Assembly: GCA_016838825.1 (NCBI GenBank)
Contig: JAEHKU010000006.1
Coordinates: 304-46,713, forward strand
Origin: Nitrosopumilales archaeon
GTDB taxonomy: Archaea; Thermoproteota; Nitrososphaeria; Nitrososphaerales; Nitrosopumilaceae
Direction: 5' to 3'
Length of the DNA: 46,410 bases
Shown here: one piece after another, positions 12,568 to 14,099 of the stretch
Numbering within the stretch: the first letter of the stretch is position 1
Layout: each line of letters begins with the position of its first letter
Program-made: the position numbers and the translations under genes
The notes under the pieces: generated by a model
What the model was told of the DNA's origin: nothing
What the model saw: only the letters and a program-made list of their open reading frames with translations
Databases searched by the model: none

Positions 12568-12620
12568 GACAGAACCACTCTAGAACGATATTAATCATTT
12601 ACAAAATTCTAGATAAAGAG

Positions 12621-12628
12621 TATATATG
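12621..12628 (+). promoter_or_regulatory. TATA box of the initiator tRNA gene
   Basis: TATATATG, 23-30 bases before the first tRNA base at 12651, the expected archaeal distance. Being palindromic, it could also serve the minus-strand GSDH-like gene, whose start is about 55 bases away. Confidence 0.6.
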
Positions 12629-12669
12629 ACATTCAAACTTCACTTGGCGTAGCGGGGTGGGGAAGTCAG

Positions 12670-12681
12670 ACTCTGGACTAA
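12670..12681 (+). other. putative 12-nt noncanonical intron in the D-loop of initiator tRNA
   Basis: Without this segment the D-loop would be 10 nt with G18-G19 joined; with it the loop is 22 nt. A relaxed bulge-helix-bulge fits: exon AGTC (12664-12667) pairs with intron GACT (12676-12679), flanked by 3-nt bulges AGA (12668-12670) and AAG (12680-12682). Cutting each bulge between its second and third base releases exactly ACTCTGGACTAA. Confidence 0.72.
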
Positions 12682-12701
12682 GTCATCCCGGCGGGCTCAT
12701 A

Positions 12702-12718
12702 ATCATCACTGATGAGAT
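12702..12718 (+). other. canonical 17-nt intron at position 37/38 of initiator tRNA
   Basis: A textbook bulge-helix-bulge is present. CTCA (12696-12699) pairs with TGAG (12713-12716), the bulges are TAA (12700-12702) and ATA (12717-12719), and the intron has an inner TCA/TGA helix with loop TCAC. Splicing restores the anticodon loop CTCATAA. Confidence 0.88.
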
Positions 12719-12773
12719 ACCCGCAAATCAGTAGTTCAAATCTACTCCCCGCTACTTTTGTCAATCTATGAAT

Positions 12774-14099
12774 TTAGAAAACTTGGAACCATTTGAGGGT
12801 GTCATTAAATTGTGTTTGTTTATTTTTTTTACCAACTCTTTGCATTGGTCTTGTAAGATGTCTGTGTGCAGACAGCACTGGTAGGTAAAGTCTTTTTTCT
12901 AAATTACGTGGGATGTACTGAATTTTTTTTCGACTACTTTTATCTCCACATCTAATGCATTCAAATCCTTGGTTCCTGCCTTTTGACTTCATTCGTTTGT
13001 GACATTTGTGACATAATGGATTTACTAGCTTTAGATTTTTTTCTAGTCTCAATATTTCCAAGAATTCAACATTTAAGATTCTTTGATGATTCTTTGATGC
13101 TTTTCGTATTCCACCACCAACTCTTACTAGGTCTCCAACAATAAGCTTTGAAGCAATCTTGGATAATCCTGTAGGTTCGTATATTGCACATCTAACTTTG
13201 TGTCCATCTTTAGTTATGAAGAAAGTGGTATGAGCTCCTCTAATGACCACCGGTTTTTTGCTAATTTGTCCGATTATAGTACCTGACGTGTATGGTTTCA
13301 AATCTGAATTCATAAACTTATTTTTTAGATGTGCGCCGGTGCCTTGGTTTGATTTAAAGACCATATATCCATCTAGTTTTTCTTTGGTTTTTACAAGTGA
13401 GGCGCCATAAATAACAGAATTAGCATTCTCTCCTCTGATGCCGTATAGAACAGGGTCTGCACCGTGTGGTGCTATCAAAATCTTGCCTTTCTCTTCGTCA
13501 TAACTATTGAATGTCTCAGGAAATGTTTTTTCTTGCATATTTCTAACACTTTGTACGGAGATCTCTCTTTTCTTTCCAAATTGTGTTTTTTTACGATAAC
13601 TGATTAGCTCAAAGGTATGATCATCGAATGTATATCCAATGGTACCTATTGCTCCAACAAGACCTTGTCCATTTCCCATGTAAAAGCACTCCAAATGATT
13701 TTTTGACACAAATTCCGTTGCACTTTTTCTCCTAATTAGTCGCCAGAGTGCAAGCTCACTAAATTCTTTGAAATGTTTAGGAATTTTTTCAGCTTCATAA
13801 AATACAAGACCAGGATTTGCACCATCTTGTGGCCTTGAATATTTCTTTACAAAATTGATTATTTGTTTTTTGATCTTTCCTGGATTGAACGTTTTAATTT
13901 TGATAGCAATCGCTCCATTTCCTCGCGTCTTCCAAGGTATGTTTGGGTTAAATCGAATTAGATAAGGATAGTCCAAAAACTGGACTTTTTCTTTTTTTAA
14001 ATAATCAACAATTTTGAAAGCAAGGAAAGTAGTACACATCTCTTTCCTAGAGTCAGTATCATCAATTCCAATGTGAAGTATTTGGCTAATTTTTCTCAA
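12774..14099 (-). CDS. tiaS: tRNA(Ile2) 2-agmatinylcytidine synthetase
   Basis: 441 residues. TiaS attaches agmatine to C34 of the CAU-anticodon tRNA-Ile2 so that it reads AUA; essential in archaea. N-terminal LHIGIDDTDSRKEMC is the family signature. A kinase-like region follows (NIPWKTRGNGAIAIK), then an OB-fold region (about 270-345, with SGTIIGQISKKPVV) and a C-terminal zinc ribbon CHKCHKRM and CIRCG. The start is TTG at 14099, which places the signature at the expected N-terminal distance. It is divergent from dph2 across a 100-base gap. It lies next to a CAT-anticodon initiator tRNA, which is not its substrate. Confidence 0.93.
   Translation of the reverse strand: MRKISQILHIGIDDTDSRKEMCTTFLAFKIVDYLKKEKVQFLDYPYLIRFNPNIPWKTRGNGAIAIKIKTFNPGKIKKQIINFVKKYSRPQDGANPGLVFYEAEKIPKHFKEFSELALWRLIRRKSATEFVSKNHLECFYMGNGQGLVGAIGTIGYTFDDHTFELISYRKKTQFGKKREISVQSVRNMQEKTFPETFNSYDEEKGKILIAPHGADPVLYGIRGENANSVIYGASLVKTKEKLDGYMVFKSNQGTGAHLKNKFMNSDLKPYTSGTIIGQISKKPVVIRGAHTTFFITKDGHKVRCAIYEPTGLSKIASKLIVGDLVRVGGGIRKASKNHQRILNVEFLEILRLEKNLKLVNPLCHKCHKRMKSKGRNQGFECIRCGDKSSRKKIQYIPRNLEKRLYLPVLSAHRHLTRPMQRVGKKNKQTQFNDTLKWFQVF

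Follow-up and report, generated by a model that had tools for sequence, protein, structure and literature searches.

The DNA analysed here (the window) is a stretch of 46,410 nucleotides in contig C6 of genome G000, a Nitrosopumilales archaeon of the Nitrosopumilaceae, ammonia-oxidiser type whose assembly amounts to 1.12 Mb in 68 contigs and is 93% complete. It carries a gene for the initiator tRNA-Met, interrupted by two putative introns, and a gene for TiaS that converges on it. The features, in window coordinates, are as follows.

12620 to 12629, plus strand: TATA-box-like sequence gtatatatga, located some 27 bases before the 5' end of the tRNA.
12651 to 12754, plus strand: initiator tRNA-Met(CAU) gene, 104 nt with two introns and 75 nt in the spliced form; CCA is not encoded.
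12651 to 12669, plus strand: exon 1, tRNA positions 1-18, ending in A14 G15 U16 C17 A17a G18 and equal to the intronless relatives.
12670 to 12681, plus strand: D-loop intron at 18/19, 12 nt, ACTCTGGACTAA (also written ACUCUGGACUAA), assigned from relatives with and without it and from the fold.
12682 to 12701, plus strand: exon 2, positions 19-37, assigned by comparison with relatives.
12702 to 12718, plus strand: canonical intron at 37/38, 17 nt, ATCATCACTGATGAGAT (also written AUCAUCACUGAUGAGAU), assigned from a strict bulge-helix-bulge in the sequence.
12719 to 12754, plus strand: exon 3, positions 38-73, assigned by comparison with relatives.
12774 to 14099, minus strand: gene for TiaS (tRNA-Ile2 agmatidine synthetase), assigned from Pfam TiaS domains; the NCBIfam TiaS model matched below its cut-off.

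The tRNA gene bears all the marks of an initiator, namely the A1-U72 pair, three G-C pairs in the anticodon stem (GCGGG/CCCGC) and the anticodon CAU; the elongator tRNA-Met is encoded by a separate gene (L016). Removal of both inserts (12670-12681 and 12702-12718) leaves 75 nt, and this spliced form is identical in 75 of 75 letters to natural intronless genes at five other loci (L105, L130, L171, L182 and L202). The original prediction had invoked two introns to account for the 104-base gene, with the splice sites placed as above and with G18 and G19 joined once the D-loop insert is cut out; the five intronless genes agree with it in length, in the exon joins and at every letter. Comparison with intronless relatives also showed that the exons in the window are without defect. 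We conclude, from sequence comparison, that the window gene is very probably the functional initiator tRNA gene of the cell, with two protein-spliced archaeal introns that are both excised and exons that are joined.

ARAGORN reported no tRNA in the window, even when introns were allowed, and the Rfam tRNA model did not report the locus at 12651-12754. The D-loop and 37/38 introns explain why neither program reported an initiator tRNA in this genome, and a simple scan of this kind would leave the impression that the genome lacks an essential gene. Further expected tRNAs of G000 may likewise be hidden by introns. At L267, about 264-369 (G000:C50:2165-2267), an ARAGORN Leu(aag) call reads like a tRNA-Gln(CUG) that has an anticodon-loop intron and, in the D-arm, a similarly built intron (GGCC facing GGUU). 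At L269 (G000:C4:43073-43129), where ARAGORN found nothing, a partial Rfam tRNA match looks like a tRNA-Gln(UUG) with a disrupted D-arm.

The 37/38 insert forms the strict motif, as had been predicted for it: a 4-bp helix CUCA/UGAG lies between the bulges UAA and AUA, with GCGGG/CCCGC as the outer helix and UCA/UGA as a short inner helix. The intron is missing from part of the relatives, in which the sequence reads CUCAUAACCCGC. It is a canonical 37/38 archaeal tRNA intron with nothing unusual about it.

The D-loop insert is of a different build. Intron bases 12676-12679 (GACU) pair with A14-G15-U16-C17 at 12664-12667 to give a 4-bp central helix, AGUC:GACU, which is present in the minimum-energy fold of the precursor, stacked on the D-stem, and which lies beside the bulges to be cut, AG^A on the 5' side and AA^G on the 3' side. 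The insert does not form a strict bulge-helix-bulge. In the fold, the 3' side has six unpaired bases instead of three separating the central helix from the D-stem, and for this reason the D-arm motif is classed as relaxed; the inner part of the intron, CUCUG, allows at most one C-G pair, so that the window copy is without an inner helix, in keeping with the original prediction. The features of a relaxed motif are present, that is, an exon-intron central helix next to the cut bulges and a standard tRNA upon removal of the insert. The D-arm alone folds no better than shuffled sequences (z = +0.67); the evidence for the D-loop motif is therefore comparative, not energetic. A cut register one base earlier (CA^G...A^AGTC) was considered and rejected; it would put A at G18, and 38 of 38 parsed intronless genes read CAGG. 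Where the last intron base of a relative is G, either register fits equally well.

The comparison was made on 79 distinct exon-intron combinations with D-loop introns of 11-24 nt, the counts being of sequences and not of independent events. All 79 have G15, Y16 and C17 paired to the intron, and a shift of the partner by -3, -2, -1, +1 or +2 bases leaves this pairing in 0 of 79, which shows that the 15-17 pairing is more than chance. Position 16 is C or U; the partner of C is G in 33 of 33 cases, and U faces G 31 times and A 15 times (Fisher p = 1e-4, uncorrected for shared ancestry). A14 is paired in only 73% of the introns. Since the exon side of the central helix is nearly invariant, the case for this helix comes mostly from conservation on the intron side. 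Inner pairs 1, 2 and 3 are kept in 100, 90 and 84%, respectively, of the introns long enough to have them, by way of C-G, U-A, A-U, G-C and G-U types and at a level above all 2000 shuffles; in the compared sequences the inner helix of the order's D-loop introns shows compensatory changes. The intron sequence is variable, and the exon joins hardly change at all. Inner helices have between five pairs and none, the last being the case in genus g5, whose D-loop introns have 11 nt, and with its one possible pair the window intron is thus a reduced member of a conserved intron. The original prediction overstated the case here: the D-loop intron is not confined to this gene and is an inherited feature found across the order, usually of 13-18 nt and with an inner helix.

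We considered whether the mature tRNA keeps the D-loop insert and so has a larger D-loop, with the anticodon intron alone being spliced. The insert is short, the D-loop of tRNAs tolerates variation in length, and the D-arm carrying the insert still folds; however, retention would keep G18 and G19, which are otherwise invariant, apart from each other, the inserts of relatives vary from 11 to 24 nt although the joined exons match the intronless genes exactly, the pairing with the intron is kept in all 79, and an endonuclease of the two-subunit type is encoded (see below). We regard retention as very unlikely. It is scarcely credible that the insert arose as an artefact of sequencing or assembly or by a recent duplication. 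An AAGTCA direct repeat does flank it in the window, but the insert recurs with altered sequence in dozens of independent assemblies, including single-contig genomes, and the relatives carrying it refute this reading. Comparison among genomes establishes the insertion, the exact joined product in relatives and the conserved pairing; excision of both introns is the preferred reading.

The surroundings of the gene were also compared. TiaS lies beside the initiator tRNA at 157 of 173 loci, with few exceptions 3 to about 100 nt from the tRNA 3' end, and all five loci with the identical intronless 75-nt gene adjoin TiaS as the window gene does. Because this neighbour is found with and without the intron, intron-bearing and intronless genes represent the same locus. 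TATA-like matches upstream of the tRNA genes cluster at -30 to -26, with 152 in that 5-base bin (135 distinct upstream regions). The conserved TiaS neighbour and TATA box argue against a pseudogene. The assembly is fragmented and incomplete, and one could envisage that the window gene has decayed and that an intact initiator tRNA gene lies in the missing 7% of the genome. Yet a search of the whole of G000 (93% complete) with the spliced form, which bears on the earlier claim of a single initiator tRNA gene, detected no second copy, the sole match being the window locus; nearly all relatives have one copy per genome, and the position beside TiaS, the conserved promoter and the exons free of defects all speak for an active gene. 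We consider decay of the window copy highly improbable, and retain the functional gene as our reading of the locus. As a separate observation, the initiator tRNA, with its anticodon CAU, and TiaS, the modifier of the CAU-bearing tRNA-Ile2, lie tail to tail (12754-12774 in the window), and this arrangement spans at least two families of the order, though TiaS must avoid the initiator CAU tRNA.

A pattern scan detected the initiator tRNA gene in 186 of 250 family genomes, nearly every one of which had a single gene, and the searches were extended to other genera and families and to the class and the phylum; genus names were assigned to group codes by sequence matching. Named records with the same gene belong to Nitrosopumilus, Nitrosarchaeum, Nitrosotalea, Cenarchaeum, Nitrosopelagicus and Nitrosocosmicus. 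The majority of the family's genera have D-loop inserts at 18/19, and so do four further families of the order (f8, f10, f12 and f14). They are absent from all listed g19 genomes (Nitrosopelagicus type), from part of g11 (Nitrosopumilus type) and from several other families. Among genomes sampled from the phylum, the insert was present in 39 of the 59 that belong to the order and in 0 of the 240 outside it (the split being counted from the rows). An 18/19 intron was sought outside the order and none was found; ten genes from other orders of the class were intronless, and a distant genome outside the order, G380, has an insertion elsewhere in its initiator tRNA gene. In a tree built from the neighbouring TiaS protein, the D-loop intron trait changes at least seven times by parsimony, two of the changes being forced by well-supported branches. 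This distribution fits a D-loop intron that is old in the order, has drifted in length and sequence and has been lost several times, with the 12 nt of the window reached by shortening, a direction of change that we infer. One contig (L124), filed under a Woeseiaceae bacterium, has an archaeal initiator tRNA and TiaS and is likely mis-binned.

We examined the genes for the enzymes that would process such a transcript. Two splicing-endonuclease genes (PF01974) are present in G000 and in 21 of 21 relatives tested, with and without the D-loop intron.

L099, 1240 to 1782: endonuclease gene 1, with the Tyr/His/Lys active-site triad kept.
L100, 1432 to 2028, minus strand: endonuclease gene 2, without the His of the triad.

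The specificity loop and K44 of the Aeropyrum pernix endonuclease have been described (PMC6379350). Endonuclease gene 1 reads YYGKPLGIAKPK where chain B of 3p1z, the A. pernix catalytic subunit, reads YYGQPLDVEKPR, and the ungapped alignment through the specificity loop puts a Lys of the former at A. pernix K44. At the level of genes, the genome thus has what an (alpha-beta)2 enzyme calls for, separate catalytic and structural subunits and the specificity-loop Lys at K44. Thaumarchaeota have an alpha2-beta2 splicing endonuclease (PMC4090602), and this enzyme type removes introns with relaxed motifs efficiently (PMC6379350). The expectation of a broad-specificity heterotetramer accords with the two subunit genes, the second lacking His, and with the Lys at K44. 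A gene for the ligase RtcB is also present in G000.

In the route that we propose, the precursor would form the canonical bulge-helix-bulge at 37/38 and, in the D-arm, a relaxed motif in which the 3' portion of the intron pairs with bases 14-17 of the D-loop; this pairing would yield the cleavable bulges AG^A and AA^G. The heterotetrameric endonuclease would then cut both introns and RtcB would join the exons, restoring G18-G19 and the standard 75-nt tRNA. For the window gene we infer transcription, the cleavage sites, ligation and the order of splicing. With G18 and G19 held apart by the intron, the precursor would be without the D-loop/T-loop elbow until it is spliced. Retention of the intron in the only initiator tRNA across the order could then be a checkpoint that makes the supply of initiator tRNA, and through it the initiation of translation, depend on the activity of the endonuclease, an idea that we consider unlikely.

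Published tRNA introns of archaea measure 11-129 nt, their medians lying mostly at 12-25 nt (PMC4090602), and D-loop introns with relaxed motifs are already described, the relaxed forms being accepted as members (PMC6379350). The window D-loop intron resembles the relaxed (hBH/BHL) introns (PMC4090602, PMC6379350, PMC8450103) in being short and away from 37/38, in its exon-intron helix with predicted cuts in the flanking bulges, and in the (alpha-beta)2-type endonuclease genes of the genome. It differs from them in its site, 18/19, which is not among the noncanonical positions spelled out in PMC4090602 (3/4, 20/21, 22/23, 25/26 and others, in a list that ends "etc."), and in its occurrence in the single initiator tRNA across an order. 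Since D-loop sites, sizes and multi-intron genes have been published, the kind of intron is already known. The original prediction held that a second intron at a noncanonical site and near the minimum size tests the range of the endonuclease; the noncanonical site stands, but the size does not, 12 nt being no test of an enzyme limit on its own because it lies inside the published range and introns of 11 nt occur in relatives. The open-access text searched yielded no description of an initiator tRNA with an intron at 18/19. tRNAscan-SE 2.0 found 107 noncanonical introns in Thaumarchaeota, and its model was trained on them (PMC8450103); database annotation of the 18/19 initiator intron likely exists already. 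By its abstract, PMC7668247 deals with modified tRNAs in three other archaea. What is new is the 18/19 site and the fact that it is conserved in the initiator tRNA throughout the order, whereas the intron is ordinary in size and kind. The introns form a natural series, from 11 to 24 nt, with an inner helix of five pairs to none and several losses, for defining the minimal needs of the endonuclease at the D-loop site, in a group that includes cultured ammonia oxidisers.

Disrupted initiator tRNA genes are known in archaea from Thermofilum pendens (PMC4090602, PMC3218864), in which the halves are permuted, whereas the window gene has simple introns. Archaeal tRNA genes with up to three introns are known as well (PMC4090602, PMC8450103). 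The window gene shares two introns with such genes, for example Pyrobaculum tRNA-Pro, but is the initiator tRNA of a Nitrososphaerales-type order and not a tRNA of Thermoproteales. At L240-L247 and L249, the initiator tRNA gene has apparently three introns, at 18/19, at 37/38 and as a T-loop insert after TTCAAA(T). Nitrososphaeraceae-type loci (L096-L098, L110, L111, L122, L142, L151, L153, L158, L160 and L180) have the D-loop intron together with a further insert that separates the variable region from the T-stem.
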